From: Hutsoniella sourekii ATCC 700629
GTDB taxonomy: Bacteria > Bacillota > Bacilli > Lactobacillales > Aerococcaceae
Direction of reading: 5' to 3'
Length of the DNA stretch: 64,000 nt
NCBI RefSeq assembly: GCF_000518205.1
Contig: NZ_JADD01000012.1
Location: 1 to 64,000 of the forward strand
Part shown: one piece after another, positions 29,318 to 50,590 of the stretch
Position numbering within the stretch: the first letter of the stretch is position 1
Layout of the letters: the number at the start of each line of letters is the position of its first letter
Notes under the pieces: model-generated
The model's database searches: none
Told to the model about the DNA's origin: nothing
Seen by the model: the letters and a program-made list of their open reading frames with translations, nothing else
Program-made: the position numbers and the translations under genes

Positions 29318-30760
29318 ATGAACAAGAAAATAAAAGATGTAACCCCTCAAAACAACAATAATAACCCTAAATTCTGGAAAGGCGTCTTCGGCGGCGTGGT
29401 CGGGACCGTTGTGACCTTATCAGTAGCTGGTGGCTTGACTTATGATTATATGCAAGGCAACCACATTGGCTATGCCCAAGAAGAAAGCCAATCCGCTGAA
29501 GAAAGCACTAGCCAAGAAAGTCAAGCTAGCGCTCAAACCACTGAATCTACTCAAGGAGCTCAATCTGATACAGAGCAAAACTTGATCAATGTGGTTGAGA
29601 AGACACAAAGTGCCGTTGTATCGGTTGAGAACCACCAAAACCCTGCCCAAGCAGGGAACTACCCAGCTTTAGGAGCTGACGGTGGCTACGTTCTAGGTGA
29701 CGCAGAGAGCCAACCGGTTCTTTATGGTACGGGGTCCGGTGTGGTCTACAAGGTTGAAGGCGACAAGGCCTATATCGTGACCAACGCTCATGTTATTGAC
29801 GGGGCGGACTCGGTGGAAGTGACCATGGCTGACGGTCAGGACGTGAAGGCAGAGCTGGTTGGTCAAGATACCATCAGCGACTTAGCTGTTCTAACAATCC
29901 CAGCTGAATATGCCAAGGAAACCTTGAAGTTTGCTAATTCTGACGAGATCAAGGTCGGAAGCCACGCGATTGCCATTGGTTCGCCAATCGGTTCAGAATT
30001 TGCCTCATCCGTCACTCAAGGGATCGTCTCAGGTCTAGACCGGAACATCCCGATTGATACCAACCAAGACGGCACGGAAGACTGGTCTATGCAATTGATC
30101 CAGACTGATGCGGCAATCAACCCAGGTAACTCTGGAGGCGCCTTGGTCAACTCATCCGGCCAACTCATCGGTATCAACTCCAGCAAACTTAGCGCTTCCG
30201 ACGTTGAAGGAATGGGCTTTGCTATTCCATCCAATGAAGTAAACCGCATCGTCCAAAAATTAGAAGAAAACGGCGAAGTCACCAGACCAGCCCTAGGTGT
30301 GGCTATCATGGATCTCTCTCATATTGCCAAAGAATCTCGTCAAGATGTCCTCAAGCTAGACCCAGAATTAACCGACGGTGTCGTCGTAGCTGAAGTTAAC
30401 CCAGACTCTGACGCTGAACGAGCCGGCATCCAAAAATACGATGTCATAGTCGGAGCCGGCGACAAGCCAGTCACCAACATGGTTGAGTTAAGACAAGCCC
30501 TCTTTGCTCACGACATCGGTGATACAATCGAACTTAAAGTACTCCGTGACGGCAAAGAAGAAACAGTCAAGGTCGAACTCACCCAAGTCCAAGAAGTCGC
30601 AAACCAACCCGAAGTCAGTGAAAGCACTGAAGGAGGCGAAGGCTTCATCCCTTACCCAGGCTACTACGGTGAAGGCGACCCTTACAGCGAATTCGGCGGC
30701 GACTACTACGGCGAAGGCGACGGAGGCTACATCCCCTTCAACCCCTTCGGCAACCAGTAA
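29318..30760 (+). CDS. htrA: Membrane-anchored serine protease HtrA
   Basis: Surface quality-control protease. The 480-residue protein has a short cytoplasmic N-terminus, one membrane helix (about 20-42), a Ser/Gln/Glu-rich linker to about residue 95, an S1C trypsin-fold domain and one PDZ domain (about 320-425). The catalytic triad is seen: H in TNAHVIDGADS, D in DTISDLAVL, S in NPGNSGGALVN. Unusually, the last 45 residues form a Gly/Tyr/Pro/acid-rich tail (YPGYYGEGDPYSEFGGDYYG) not needed for the fold. It ends the Wal locus as in many Firmicutes. The gene usually found next, rlmH, is not in the window. Confidence 0.95.
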   Translation: MNKKIKDVTPQNNNNNPKFWKGVFGGVVGTVVTLSVAGGLTYDYMQGNHIGYAQEESQSAEESTSQESQASAQTTESTQGAQSDTEQNLINVVEKTQSAVVSVENHQNPAQAGNYPALGADGGYVLGDAESQPVLYGTGSGVVYKVEGDKAYIVTNAHVIDGADSVEVTMADGQDVKAELVGQDTISDLAVLTIPAEYAKETLKFANSDEIKVGSHAIAIGSPIGSEFASSVTQGIVSGLDRNIPIDTNQDGTEDWSMQLIQTDAAINPGNSGGALVNSSGQLIGINSSKLSASDVEGMGFAIPSNEVNRIVQKLEENGEVTRPALGVAIMDLSHIAKESRQDVLKLDPELTDGVVVAEVNPDSDAERAGIQKYDVIVGAGDKPVTNMVELRQALFAHDIGDTIELKVLRDGKEETVKVELTQVQEVANQPEVSESTEGGEGFIPYPGYYGEGDPYSEFGGDYYGEGDGGYIPFNPFGNQ

Positions 30761-30910: not shown

Positions 30911-31425
30911 CGAAATAAATTTGGCGTATAAAAGTCTGTTTCTATTGGGTACGAAACAAATTTGGTGTATAAAAGGGTCGTTCAATTAGGTACGAAAAAA
31001 TTTTGGTATATAAAAGTCTTGTTCTATTGGGTACGAAAAAATTTTGGTGTATAAAAGTCTGTTGCTATTGGGTATGAAATAGATTTGGCGTATAAAAGAT
31101 GGCTTCTATTGGGTACGAAATAAATTTGGCGTATAAAAGATGGCTTCAATTGGGTACGAAAAAAATTTGGTGTATAAAAGGTGGGTTCAATTGGGTGTGA
31201 AAATATTTTGGCATATAAAAGGATCGTTCATTTGGGTACGAAAAAATTTTGGTGTATAAAAGCCGTTTTCCATTGGGTGCGAAACAAATTTGGCGTATAA
31301 AAGTCTGTTTCTATTGGGTATGAAATAGATTTGGCGTATAAAAGGCAGGTTCAATTGGGTATGAAAATAATTTGGTGTATAAAAGCCGGCTCCCTTTGGC
31401 TACAAAACAAATTTGGTATCTAGTA
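30911..31425. repeat. 41-bp tandem repeat array, about 12 units
   Basis: About twelve head-to-tail units of 41 bp (one or two off by a base) fill most of the 800-bp gap between htrA and the Rpn gene. Each unit has a conserved core close to TTGGGTACGAAA then AAATTTGGTGTATAAAAG, and a variable stretch of about six bases before TTCTA or TTCAA. Cores begin near 30911, 30951, 30992, 31033, 31073, 31115, 31156, 31198, 31239, 31280, 31321 and 31361; a degenerate unit lies at 31402. No reading frame crosses it. GGTAGC (30853-30858) and GCTACC pair just before the array. The spacing is close to four helical turns. Function unknown. Confidence 0.9.
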
Positions 31426-31526: not shown

Positions 31527-31535
31527 TGCTATAAT
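31527..31535 (+). promoter_or_regulatory. Extended -10 promoter of the Rpn module
   Basis: TGCTATAAT at 31527-31535 is a perfect extended -10; TTCATC at 31507-31512 gives a 17-bp spacer. An inverted repeat, AGGAGG (31495-31500) and CCTCCT (31514-31519), brackets the -35 region and could be an operator. It lies 24 bp before the start codon. Confidence 0.6.
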
Positions 31536-31558: not shown

Positions 31559-32155
31559 ATGGAACAATTCCCAGAACCACGCTATCTAGCCACAAGTGAT
31601 CTCCTATTCAAGAAAGTACTCGCATCGCCTGGTAATGAAGAAATTCTACTCGAGATGATCAATCGCCTAACCAATCAGCAATTCGAATCTGCCAAGCCCC
31701 TATCTCCTTACAATATTGAACTCTACAAAGAAGCTCAGGCCCAGGCAGGTAATAAGTTGAGGCATACCGAAGTGGATGTTCGAGCTAGGACGGGTACAGG
31801 TGAGCAGGTAACCATTGAAATGCAACTCGTGGCCCCTCGAAACTTTCTCAAGCGCGTACACTTCTACGCAGCCAATACCTATACGGATTATTATGCCAAC
31901 TATGACGACTCAAACAAAATGCTCCTTGATTCTGTTCAGACAACGGATCCCTATCAGCCATTACGAACTGTCTACAGTATCAATATTGTCGCTAATTCAG
32001 TCTCGCATTCAAACCAAGCAGCTTGGCGAATCTATCGAACTTTAGATGAACAAACAGGCGAGCCCATCACTGCTATACCGGGAGTTTACCCCTCTACCCC
32101 CTGTGGCGCTATTATAATGGCCTATCCCCCTTACAGGATGCTCCAGAATTTCTGA
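31559..32155 (+). pseudogene. Rpn-family PD-(D/E)XK nuclease, core domain, C-terminus lost by frameshift
   Basis: A 198-residue ORF. Residues 1-165 match the Rpn/PDDEXK_2 type (recombination-promoting nuclease, transposase_31 relatives): SDLLFKKVLASPGNEEILLE at 13-32, the acidic residue in TEVDVRAR (D73) and the second motif TIEMQ (E87-x-Q89), so the nuclease site looks intact. After about residue 175 the frame leaves the family; the reading frame one base back continues as LPLYPLWRYYNG, DAPEFLKKAYRIIERHNL and then directly into the ORF at 32209. A one-base loss in the C runs at 32089-32101 would explain this. So the ancestral gene ran from 31559 to 32526. Whether the short form is still made is unknown. 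Confidence 0.75.
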
Positions 32156-32208
32156 AAAAAGCTTACAGGATAATTGAAAGACATAACTTAAATGAGGAGG
32201 AACTTCAA

Positions 32209-32526
32209 ATGATCACTCAAGAAGAATACCGTCAAGCTAACCTAAGATCCTTCCTGGTGGACATGGAACTTCGGGTCAAGGAAAGCCATGAACAAGGACT
32301 GGAACAGGGCCTTGAGCAAGGTCTAGAACAAGGCGTCCAAAAAGGTATGGAAGCAGGCCTTACCCAAGGCCTATCAAAAGGCCTAGCCCTGGGCCAAGCG
32401 CGCAGCTACCAGCACTTACTGCAAAAAGGTCTCACCCCCATTCAAATCGCCGACCTCTACGACGTGACAGAATCAGAAGTATCATCCAGCCTGTCGCTCC
32501 TCAATCACTCCACCCTTAAAAACTAG
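32209..32526 (+). CDS. Rpn C-terminal domain, copy 1 (stand-alone small ORF)
   Basis: A 105-residue ORF starting at ATG 32209, 9 nt after GAGGAGG. The region upstream in the same frame is the missing C-terminal part of the Rpn gene, so this is both the tail of that gene and a possible product of its own. Layout: MITQEEYRQANLRSFLVDME helix, a run of xQGL-type tetrapeptides (residues about 28-62, the longest of the three copies), then ARSYQHLLQKGL and a helix-turn-helix-like end (QIADLYDVTESEVSSSLSLL). Such Gly-Leu repeats and end are usual in Rpn proteins. The two following ORFs are copies of it. Confidence 0.75.
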   Translation: MITQEEYRQANLRSFLVDMELRVKESHEQGLEQGLEQGLEQGVQKGMEAGLTQGLSKGLALGQARSYQHLLQKGLTPIQIADLYDVTESEVSSSLSLLNHSTLKN

Positions 32527-32549
32527 CTAGCCCATAGGAGGAACTTCAG

Positions 32550-32831
32550 ATGATTACTCAAGAAGAATACCGCCAAGCCAACCTAAAATCCTTCCTGGTG
32601 GACATGGAACTTCGGATCAAGGAAAGCCATGAACAAGGCCTGGAACAGGGTCTTGCACAGGGCCTTACCCAAGGCCTATCAGAAGGCCTGGCCCTGGGTC
32701 AAGCACGTAGCTACCAACACTTACTGCAAAAAGGCCTCACCCCCAGTCAAATTGCTGACCTGTACGACGTGACAGAATCAGAAGTATCATCCAGCTTGTC
32801 GCTCCTCAGTCAATCCACCCTCAAAAACTAG
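32550..32831 (+). CDS. Rpn C-terminal domain, copy 2
   Basis: A 93-residue ORF, a tandem copy of the ORF at 32209. Its ribosome site ATAGGAGGAAC is 6-8 nt before the ATG and better spaced than in copy 1. It has fewer xQGL tetrapeptides (36 bp shorter than copy 1) and the same end region. There is no nuclease core in front of it; it is preceded by the stop of copy 1 and a 23-bp spacer. Against copy 3 I count about ten silent and three amino-acid-changing differences before their C-termini diverge. Confidence 0.8.
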   Translation: MITQEEYRQANLKSFLVDMELRIKESHEQGLEQGLAQGLTQGLSEGLALGQARSYQHLLQKGLTPSQIADLYDVTESEVSSSLSLLSQSTLKN

Positions 32832-32854
32832 CTAGCCCATAGGAGGAACTTCAG

Positions 32855-33130
32855 ATGATTACTCAAGAAGAATACCGTCAAGCTAACTTAAGATCCTTCC
32901 TAGTGGACGTGGAACTTCGGATCAAGGAAAGCCATGAACAAGGCCTGGAACAGGGTCTTGCACAGGGCCTTACCCAAGGCCTATCAGAAGGCCTGGCCCT
33001 GGGCCAAGCGCGCAGCTACCAACACTTACTGCAAAAAGGCCTCACCCACAGTCAAATCGCCGACCTCTACGACGTGACAGAATCGGCCATCGCCAACAGC
33101 CTCTCCTTACTAGCCGATTCATCCTCTTAA
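32855..33130 (+). CDS. Rpn C-terminal domain, copy 3
   Basis: A 91-residue ORF, the third tandem copy, exactly 305 bp after copy 2 and with the same 23-bp spacer and ribosome site. The N-terminal 75 residues are almost those of copy 2 (K to R, M to V, P to H), but the last 15 differ (SAIANSLSLLADSSS), so it may carry the original gene end. A terminator follows at 33147-33183, making 31559-33130 one transcription unit. Confidence 0.8.
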   Translation: MITQEEYRQANLRSFLVDVELRIKESHEQGLEQGLAQGLTQGLSEGLALGQARSYQHLLQKGLTHSQIADLYDVTESAIANSLSLLADSSS

Positions 33131-33146
33131 CCCTCAGCCAGCCACT

Positions 33147-33183
33147 AGACGGGTACCTACCAGCCAGGTGCCCGTCTATTTTA
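33147..33183 (+). terminator. Terminator after the Rpn module
   Basis: AGACGGGTACCT (33147-33158) pairs with AGGTGCCCGTCT (33166-33177) with one mismatch, followed by ATTTTAT. Confidence 0.85.
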
Positions 33184-33298: not shown

Positions 33299-34060
33299 AT
33301 GCAAGAAGAAGTAAGCTTATTAGAAATCTTCCAAATGTTACGTAAGCATTTGGGAGCCATTATCGGCACCACCCTCATTGCTGGAGCGATTGGTGTCCTG
33401 GTTGCCATGTTCCTTGTATCCAACAAATACAGTTCCCAGGCTCAGCTGTTAGTTAACCAACAGTCAGCTGCCCCTGCGACCCGCAACAACATGCCCGACC
33501 AGCAAATTCAATACAACGATATCCAGACTAACGTGGCCTTGATCAACACTTATAGCGATATGATTAAGTCTGACTCCGTCCTCAATGAAGTCAGCCAACA
33601 AGTCGAGGGTAATATCAGTCTAGCTGACCTTAAGGGAGCAATCAGTGTCGAACAAGAGCCGAACTCTCAGGCCTTCAACGTTGAAGCAGTCACTACTTCA
33701 CCAACACTCTCTCAACAAGTGGTGGAATCTGTGATCCAAGTCTTCGAAGAGACCTTAACCGAAGTATACGGCGAAGATATCTCTAGTATCTATGTCCTCT
33801 CGCCAGCGACCTTCAACGAGAACCCCGTATCACCCAACCGGATCCTCTATGGCTTGATTGGGGCGGTTCTCGGTGCTGGATTGAGCCTGATGATTGCACT
33901 CTTCCGTGAGATGTCTGATACCACGGTTCGCGACAGCGACTTCATCCAGACACTCGGACTCGTCAACCTGGGCGAGATCTGTGCCTTAACTAAGAGCGAA
34001 GTGCGTGATAACCGCATGGCTAACAACATGTCGCGTGCTGACAATAAACGTAGAATTTAG
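33299..34060 (+). CDS. Wzz/CpsC-type chain-length and kinase-activator protein
   Basis: First gene of the capsule/exopolysaccharide locus. The 253-residue protein has a membrane helix at about 20-42, an extracellular Wzz domain and a second helix at about 183-203 with the proline-rich start (NENPVSPNRILYGLIGAVLG) typical of the family. It activates the cytoplasmic BY-kinase encoded next and helps set polymer length. AAAGGAG precedes the ATG. GC content is like the core genome. Equivalent to CpsC, EpsA or CapA in other species. Confidence 0.92.
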   Translation: MQEEVSLLEIFQMLRKHLGAIIGTTLIAGAIGVLVAMFLVSNKYSSQAQLLVNQQSAAPATRNNMPDQQIQYNDIQTNVALINTYSDMIKSDSVLNEVSQQVEGNISLADLKGAISVEQEPNSQAFNVEAVTTSPTLSQQVVESVIQVFEETLTEVYGEDISSIYVLSPATFNENPVSPNRILYGLIGAVLGAGLSLMIALFREMSDTTVRDSDFIQTLGLVNLGEICALTKSEVRDNRMANNMSRADNKRRI

Positions 34061-34068
34061 GTGATAAG

Positions 34069-34794
34069 ATGGGATTATTTAGCAAAAACAGAAACAGCTT
34101 AGAAAAAGAACAACTCCAAGGGGCACCTCTCATTACCTATTATGAGCCCAAATCCGTAATCAGTGAACAATTCCGGACCGTTCGAACCAACATTCAGTTC
34201 GCCCGCTTGGACACCAAGTTGAAGTCGATCTTGGTTACATCCAGTATTCCAGGTGAAGGAAAGTCCATGGTAGCAGCCAACCTGGCCAACGTTATGGCCC
34301 AGAACGGTCAGAATGTCCTACTCGTAGACTCTGACTTACGTAAGCCAACCGTTCACCGGACCTTCGCCCTAGACAATAGCCAAGGCCTCTCGACCTTACT
34401 CTCTGACCGGGAAGCGGATATTAACCAGATCATCCACCGCCTACCAGAATTAGGCTTGAGTATCTTGTCTTCCGGACCGGTCCCACCTAACCCGGCCGAG
34501 CTCTTGAACTCTGCTCGAATGACCAGCTTGATGAGTGCCTTGGAACAATACTTTGATGTTATTATCTATGACGTCTCTCCACTAACTGCCGTAACAGATG
34601 CCCAGATTATGGCCGCCAAGGTAGATGGTGTGGTCTTCGTGATGCGGCAAGATTATGTCTTGGAAGGCGAAGTGAGACATGCCGTTGAGACCTTGAACAA
34701 TGTCAACGCCAACATCTTAGGTTGCATCACCAACGGAGTCGATGCAAGTTCCGCTAGCGAATATTATGCCTATGCTTATGGAGAAGATCTCTAA
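34069..34794 (+). CDS. Bacterial tyrosine kinase (CpsD/Wze type)
   Basis: Cytoplasmic BY-kinase controlling polysaccharide assembly. The 241-residue protein has Walker A SSIPGEGKSMVAANLA near 59-74, Walker A' VDSDLRKPTVH near 91 and Walker B VIIYDVSPL near 165. The C-terminal SASEYYAYAYGEDL is the autophosphorylated tyrosine cluster. It is 8 bp from wzz and overlaps the phosphatase gene by one base (TAATG). Split kinase plus activator is the Firmicute arrangement. Confidence 0.93.
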   Translation: MGLFSKNRNSLEKEQLQGAPLITYYEPKSVISEQFRTVRTNIQFARLDTKLKSILVTSSIPGEGKSMVAANLANVMAQNGQNVLLVDSDLRKPTVHRTFALDNSQGLSTLLSDREADINQIIHRLPELGLSILSSGPVPPNPAELLNSARMTSLMSALEQYFDVIIYDVSPLTAVTDAQIMAAKVDGVVFVMRQDYVLEGEVRHAVETLNNVNANILGCITNGVDASSASEYYAYAYGEDL

Positions 34795-35594
34795 TGATTA
34801 TTGACTTACATAGTCACCTCTTACCAGGAGTGGATGATGGGGCCAAGGACCTGGAAGCGTCCTTGACTCTAGCCCGCTTGGCGGTTGAAGAAGGGATTGA
34901 ACACCTAGTCTTAACCCCCCACCACAATAACCGTCAATTCGTTAATCCAGGCCCCGGTGTGGTTCAAGCCACTCAGGCCTTGCAAGCGGCTTATGACCAA
35001 GCGGGGATTCCGCTGAAGGTCTATCCTGCCCAAGAGATTCGCTTAACAGAGGCTTTCTTGGATGAACTCTATGCGGGTCAACTCTTGTCCTTGGATGGTG
35101 GCGGACGTTATTACTTGATTGAATTCCCGACCCGGGAGATTCCGGCATGTACTGAGGACGTCCTGCAAGCCTTGATTGATCAAGGCTCCACCCCAGTGAT
35201 TGCTCACCCCGAGCGCCAACACAACTTCCAGAAAGACTTGGACTACTATGCCAGTCTGATTGAAAGAGGTTGTCTGGGACAATTAACCAATGGATCACTG
35301 GCTGGCCGGATGGGACCCGAAGTCGAAGCTGTCTCCAGAGAAATGATCAACCGGGGATTGGTTCACTTCTTATCATCCGATGTCCACCATCCCGACTGGC
35401 GTCCCTTCGATACCCGGGCCGCCTATCAAGTCTTAGAAGATACATACGGATCAGACAAAGTAGCCAGCTTCAAGCAAGTTGCCCGTGCGGTAATCAATGG
35501 TGACCCTGTTGAAGTCGCACCGGTCCAAAGAACCCAGCCCGTTCATAGGAAAAAGAAAAACCAGAAGAAAGCCTTCTGGCAGTTTTTGAAGTAG
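34794..35594 (+). CDS. PHP-type protein-tyrosine phosphatase (CpsB/Wzb type)
   Basis: Manganese-dependent phosphatase that reverses the BY-kinase. The 266-residue protein has the PHP metal motifs: DLHSHLLPGVDDGAKD at 3-18, TPHHNNRQF near 41, IAHPERQHNF near 136 and SSDVHHPDWRP near 195. The C-terminus ends in a lysine-rich stretch. Translationally coupled to the kinase gene. This completes the regulatory trio; the composition changes shortly afterwards. Confidence 0.93.
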   Translation: MIIDLHSHLLPGVDDGAKDLEASLTLARLAVEEGIEHLVLTPHHNNRQFVNPGPGVVQATQALQAAYDQAGIPLKVYPAQEIRLTEAFLDELYAGQLLSLDGGGRYYLIEFPTREIPACTEDVLQALIDQGSTPVIAHPERQHNFQKDLDYYASLIERGCLGQLTNGSLAGRMGPEVEAVSREMINRGLVHFLSSDVHHPDWRPFDTRAAYQVLEDTYGSDKVASFKQVARAVINGDPVEVAPVQRTQPVHRKKKNQKKAFWQFLK

Positions 35595-50357: not shown

Positions 50358-50590
50358 GGTTATCATACACTTCCCGAAGGCAAAGTGTATAGCAATTGTT
50401 CGTTATCATACGCTTTGCCAGGTTGAAGTGTATAACAATTGTTCGTTATTATACGCATTACCCAATTGAAGTGTATAGCAATTGATCGTTATTATACGCT
50501 TTGCCAGGTTGAAGTGTATGACAATTGATCGTTATTATACGCTTTGCCAGGTTGAAGTGTATGAAAAGTGTTCGTTATTATACGCTTAAG
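50358..50590. repeat. 43-bp tandem hairpin repeat, five to six units
   Basis: Units of exactly 43 bp start at about 50358, 50401, 50444, 50487, 50530 and (partial) 50573. Each contains ATACGCTT or ATACACTT and, 10 bp later, AAGTGTAT, which pair as an 8-bp stem, followed by CAATTGATCGTTATT or a close variant. The first unit pairs perfectly (ATACACTT / AAGTGTAT). The last unit touches the stop codon of the NERD gene. One unit contains ACCCAATTGAAG, also found on the minus strand of the 41-bp array. Confidence 0.9.

Follow-up and report, generated by a model that had tools for sequence, protein, structure and literature searches.

The window, i.e., the whole stretch of 64,000 nucleotides of Hutsoniella sourekii ATCC 700629 DNA that was analysed, carries an Rpn nuclease gene that is, by comparison with its relatives, broken by a loss of about 50–60 nt and followed by two stand-alone copies of its C-terminal domain. 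Here and in other genomes, such copies almost always differ from the own domain of the adjoining nuclease, having either another count of 4-residue repeats or another tail. The explanation that accounts best for these features, and to which we give roughly an even chance, is that the copies may encode RpnS variants, each made as a protein of its own, and may in addition donate sequence to the C-terminus of the nuclease by recombination.

The window locus and its small reading frames

The locus consists of the following features.

31527..31535, + strand: extended -10 promoter-like sequence TGCTATAAT, without a -35
31559..32155, + strand: Rpn nuclease ORF of 198 aa with PDDEXK_2 core, cut short by a change of frame
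32080..32104, + strand: lesion, about 50–60 nt short of relatives and out of frame (from comparison with relatives)
32104..32208, + strand: nuclease C-terminal remnant (WRYYNG...EEELQ) in another frame, which runs on into copy 1
32195..32200, + strand: AGGAGG ribosome site for the internal start of copy 1, encoded by EEE
32209..32526, + strand: copy 1, native RpnS-like C-terminal domain, 105 aa
32536..32541, + strand: AGGAGG ribosome site of copy 2
32550..32831, + strand: copy 2, stand-alone RpnS-like ORF, 93 aa
32841..32846, + strand: AGGAGG ribosome site of copy 3
32855..33130, + strand: copy 3, stand-alone RpnS-like ORF, 91 aa, with a different tail end
33146..33178, + strand: terminator-like hairpin of 13 pairs, then a T run TTTTATAT

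Nuclease ORF: The PD-(D/E)XK core named in the preliminary description is confirmed by a profile search, in which PF12784 (PDDEXK_2) covers amino acids 13–170 at 59.9 bits (cut-off 27.4), and by an alignment, in which the relatives' invariant residues T.VD..A....G.....EMQ are present. TIGR01784 reaches 30.8 bits and stays under its cut-off of 52.1 because the ORF is truncated. A match to Botulinum_HA-17 (16.7 bits, cut-off 21) is taken as chance, and a search of the genome contigs with the window nuclease as the lone query returns no relatives. An uninterrupted full-length RpnL frame is absent from the window, with the frame change and the loss of about 50–60 nt lying before 32104. Between GEPITAI (GEP..I) and the conserved W (WxxFF), the relatives have about 26–29 residues, whereas only about 8 would fit in the window; the lesion is therefore not a single-base slip. 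A programmed frameshift that rescues the nuclease is rejected because of the same difference and because no slippery heptamer is seen by eye. On this comparison, the window nuclease is probably inactive. The frame that enters copy 1 reads WRYYNGLSPLQDAPEFLKKAYRIIERHNLNEEELQ-MITQEEYRQAN and can be aligned to intact Rpn proteins over their C-terminal third; copy 1 is thus the nuclease's own C-terminal domain. As the nuclease is broken, the locus would at present make small proteins only, and for the same reason its function is not readable from the window alone.

Copies 1 to 3: The small ORFs of 105, 93 and 91 aa had been described as tandem copies of the C-terminal region that stand apart from the nuclease. 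They are direct repeats as stated, but the first belongs to the nuclease itself and is only split from it by the frame. Similarly, the AGGAGG sites attributed to copies 2 and 3 are present but not confined to them, as copy 1 has one too, and in all three copies the distance to the ATG is 8 nt. The DNA common to the copies begins at AGGAGG (32195, 32536, and 32841, with spacings of 341 and 305), and copies 2 and 3 are built from a 305-bp unit that starts at the ribosome site. The identity among the repeats, 85% over 156 nt, far exceeds chance and rules out a chance origin. Stop and next start are 23 nt apart in the row, and copy 1 has three more 4-aa repeats (12 residues) than copies 2 and 3. 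The copies have diverged for long (dS 0.34–0.44, dN 0.034–0.095) at dN/dS ratios of 0.10 (copies 1 and 2), 0.22 (1 and 3) and 0.22 (2 and 3), and stand-alone copies without constraint are expected to lie nearer 0.5–1; all three have therefore been kept as proteins. None of them contains a stop or a frameshift. Native/copy pairs from other genera and E. coli give dN/dS of 0.05–0.26 in nearly all cases and 0.36 in one, with the exception of a tail-swapped copy (copy 4 of L104, 0.5–0.7).

Predicted structure: The model of copy 2 (pLDDT 82) has helices at residues 4–60 (long), 65–72 and 76–92, i.e., the expected RpnS architecture of one long and two short helices, with an end predicted to be helix-turn-helix (HTH)-like. 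A fold search with this model gives a resemblance to Spo0J/LuxR-type HTH with weak E-values only, and the RpnA-S fold (PDB 7TH0) is not among the matches listed. Copy 3 matches HTH_ParB at 25.0 bits (Pfam cut-off 22.6). The window ORFs give no match to DUF4351 (PF14261; stand-alone RpnS in some species), with E-values up to 1. Pfam and NCBIfam matches of the small ORFs to FliH, Yae1 and the like are discounted as low-complexity artefacts because the GxxxGxxxG repeat produces them.

Transcription signals: The extended -10 element, described earlier as strong, is present and plausible as a promoter by its sequence but not exceptional, with 5 such 9-mers in the window versus 3.2 expected. Where a terminator was said to end the set, a terminator-like hairpin with a T run is present, and copies 2 and 3 are probably on one transcript. 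Directly upstream of the promoter lies a 41-bp minisatellite of about 12 units (GTATAAAAG...TTGGGTACGAAA, window 30911–31416). Similar arrays are present in the same genome on contigs C1, C13 and C12, the first about 1.6 kb from an intact Rpn locus and the second about 5.5 kb from a broken one. A second tandem array (window 50383–50587) has 4.8 copies of a 43-bp unit. The rpn array is flanked by an htrA-like serine protease gene and capsule-type genes (window 29318–30760 and 33299–35594), the latter being chain-length, tyrosine kinase and phosphatase-like by eye from their translations.

Copies in other Rpn loci

A search of related genomes for nucleases with tandem copies, as proposed in the preliminary description, finds them, e.g., at L100, L103, L104, L105 and L065. 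The window's own genome has five Rpn loci. The loci on which the comparison draws are the following.

L100, own genome, contig C1: intact nuclease and one stand-alone copy
L101, own genome, contig C28: intact nuclease without copies
L102, own genome, contig C13: broken nuclease
L099, own genome, contig C6, 2488–3152: two tandem orphan RpnS-like ORFs without an adjoining nuclease
L103, genome G058 (another Aerococcaceae genus): intact nuclease and two copies
L104, G058: intact nuclease and up to about five copies
L105, G058: intact nuclease and two copies
L065, Enterococcus hulanensis: intact nuclease and two copies

The orphan ORFs of L099 are 72 and 80 aa long, and each is preceded by a separate leader of about 200 bp and an AGGAGG site; another orphan copy without an adjoining nuclease is found in G015 (L111). 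Rpn profiles match 16 times in the G058 genome (contig C1, L103–L108), and arrays as well as broken nucleases are among these matches.

Frequency: A first sample comprises 103 nuclease ORFs that are followed by 600 nt or more of sequence. It is enriched for relatives, and part of its regions were included because a copy was already known there. Of these loci, 31 have at least one downstream copy and 8 have at least two, two of these 8 being weak (L079 and L086). In a second sample of 41 loci, picked by nuclease score from the whole phylum, at least one copy is found in 6 and at least two in 2. Rows of two to about five copies are thus present in up to 10 of the 144 nuclease loci surveyed. The copies always lie on the same strand downstream of the nuclease, seeming upstream matches being neighbouring Rpn loci. 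The ATG is aligned with the native internal start in nearly every start-resolved copy, and most copies have a clear Shine-Dalgarno (SD) sequence. The tandem layout recurs independently in several lineages. A scan of viral contigs finds no relatives. The earlier suggestion that an internal antitoxin has become multi-copy and separately translatable agrees with the own ribosome sites of the copies and with the same layout in relatives whose nuclease is intact.

Repeat-number and tail mismatch: The length differences between native domain and copy are multiples of 4 aa in all 36 pairs and nonzero in 28; they correspond to whole repeats in the dimer helix. Among the eight pairs with zero difference, L055 is an alignment artefact in which the copy is 12 residues longer in the full alignment, and in L084, copy 4 of L104, copies 1 and 2 of L105, and L199 the tail or its start differs. 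The copy truly equals the native domain in L182, and L198 is equal in net length. In E. coli, rpnE and ypaA match in repeat number in none of 14 strains, and ypaA is open with an SD sequence in all 14. These strains represent about nine distinct combinations (haplotypes), among which about 0.6 matches are expected under independence, so the E. coli data show absence of matching and not avoidance. Active avoidance of equal repeat number is dropped on this ground. The mismatch is equally expected from independent drift of repeat number, and active diversification is unsupported by the E. coli counts.

Tail exchange: The nucleases of L104 and L105 in G058 are 97.7% identical over 1004 nt, and their tails 58%. 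The native tail of L105 shares 96% identity with stand-alone copy 4 of L104, and copy 1 of L105 bears the L104 tail. On the simplest account of these sequences, recombination in the common head would have moved a stand-alone copy into the nuclease gene. This transfer is the only clear case reconstructed, and simple deletion between direct repeats may have taken place instead. Where a genome has several loci, about half of the copies most resemble the nuclease tail of a different locus. A shortened rpnE span without a separate copy is found in many E. coli strains and has been described in PMC10327210 as loss or fusion.

Interpretation of the mismatched copies

We infer from sequence that each copy is translated, has antitoxin activity, pairs with other repeat classes, and can serve as a donor. 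As in known Rpn genes, the nuclease C-terminal domain would start internally, at an AGGAGG...ATG encoded by an EEExxM motif, and duplication of this internal-start stretch together with its ribosome site would have given copies 2 and 3. Both would be translated on their own, probably from one transcript. Because repeat number sets RpnS–RpnL pairing, the copies are regarded as small variant partners whose changes do not follow those of the adjoining nuclease. They may act, by neutralising or tuning, on nucleases with a different repeat number or tail, such as those of paralogues or incoming alleles. Moreover, via their common head, the copies could recombine into the nuclease gene and alter its C-terminus; for this donor step, the sequences of one relative genome (G058) offer direct support. 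A more far-reaching proposal, which we put forward only tentatively, is that arrays of mismatched cassettes form an antitoxin repertoire of different specificities and a store for changes of the nuclease C-terminus.

A simple dosage effect, in which the copies supply the adjoining nuclease with more of the same antitoxin and mismatch matters little, is compatible with separate ribosome sites, with purifying selection and with genes that lie downstream, probably on one transcript. In its favour, too, E. coli makes the ypaA product (PMC10327210), and L182 matches fully. However, repeat number or tail nearly always differs between copy and nuclease, one added repeat abolishes inhibition in RpnC (PMC10327210; a rule that rests on that single E. 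coli protein), and copies 2 and 3 are intact though the window nuclease is broken, so we consider dosage rather unlikely. The broken nuclease would be irrelevant if the copies gave orphan immunity, i.e., protection from Rpn nucleases that other alleles or invading elements encode (anti-addiction). Selection on the copies beside a broken nuclease is consistent with this, as are the nuclease-free orphans of L099, L111 and E. coli CX04 (L216), the last of which keeps a stand-alone copy without the rpnE nuclease body. In contrast, the scan of viral contigs provides no support for such a role and no matching foreign nuclease is identified, which makes orphan immunity a little less probable again than dosage. 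The remaining copy of L216 adjoins a TnsA-domain gene, and the toxin was perhaps lost by a Tn7-like insertion.

Two further explanations are considered improbable. A functionless tandem duplication at the repeat-rich 3' end of a decaying gene suits the repeat-prone region and the broken nuclease, and E. coli often shows collapse between direct repeats (also in PMC10327210). Such a passive by-product is nevertheless improbable given dN/dS of 0.10–0.22 at dS of about 0.4, three of three copies without stops or frameshifts, aligned ATGs mostly with SD sequences, and a layout that recurs independently in several lineages. About as improbable is a function as DNA-binding autoregulators, as the tail of the small proteins resembles a ParB-type HTH, with the HTH_ParB match of copy 3 and the weakly Spo0J/LuxR-like model of copy 2 in its favour. 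Against it, the native domain of RpnA is an oligomerisation and antitoxin domain (PMC10327210), for which the HTH resemblance is noted too.

The co-evolution of RpnL and RpnS has been called obligatory in published work because the genes overlap. Stand-alone copies uncouple RpnS from RpnL and, across bacteria, are out of register with the adjoining nuclease. This mismatch offers a cheap and direct way to probe the meaning of repeat number and to see if the copies are immunity proteins, regulators or switching parts. It also bears on the fast repeat variation of Rpn proteins and on how a toxin with a built-in antitoxin changes specificity.

Comparison with known systems

CDI/Rhs loci: These loci have orphan C-terminal tips and immunity genes, i.e., downstream spare modules that can recombine into the main gene. 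Unlike in CDI/Rhs, the Rpn module comes from an intracellular nuclease, whose antitoxin and dimerisation domain it is, and no homology is implied.

RpnL/RpnS (E. coli RpnA–E and RpnP2): RpnS is the intragenic antitoxin of RpnL (Zhong et al. 2023, PMC10327210), and RpnA-S is a dimeric three-helix bundle (PMC10327210). As in the window, these systems have a PD-(D/E)XK nuclease whose C-terminal domain is also started internally; this domain has a long first helix that contains 4-residue repeats, and then short helices. The internal SD sequence and start of this type are predicted in the window at AGGAGG 32195–32200 and ATG 32209. On the other hand, the window adds two stand-alone copies, its nuclease is broken, and this nuclease belongs to the PF12784 branch, while RpnL/RpnS belongs to PF04754.

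ypaA (rpnES) and rpnCS: In E. coli, RpnS also occurs as a separate downstream gene, with independent origins (PMC10327210), and a separate antitoxin is thus not the new form that it had been taken for. The resemblance to the window is close, as a stand-alone copy of the C-terminal domain lies directly downstream with its own ribosome site, and in rpnE/ypaA the repeat number of the copy also differs from that of the native domain. ypaA and rpnCS have one copy each, whereas the window has two and L104 up to about five. The main text of PMC10327210 reports neither arrays of at least two copies nor separate copies that are out of register. While a single separate RpnS is already published, arrays with two to about five copies and the register mismatch between copy and nuclease are new.
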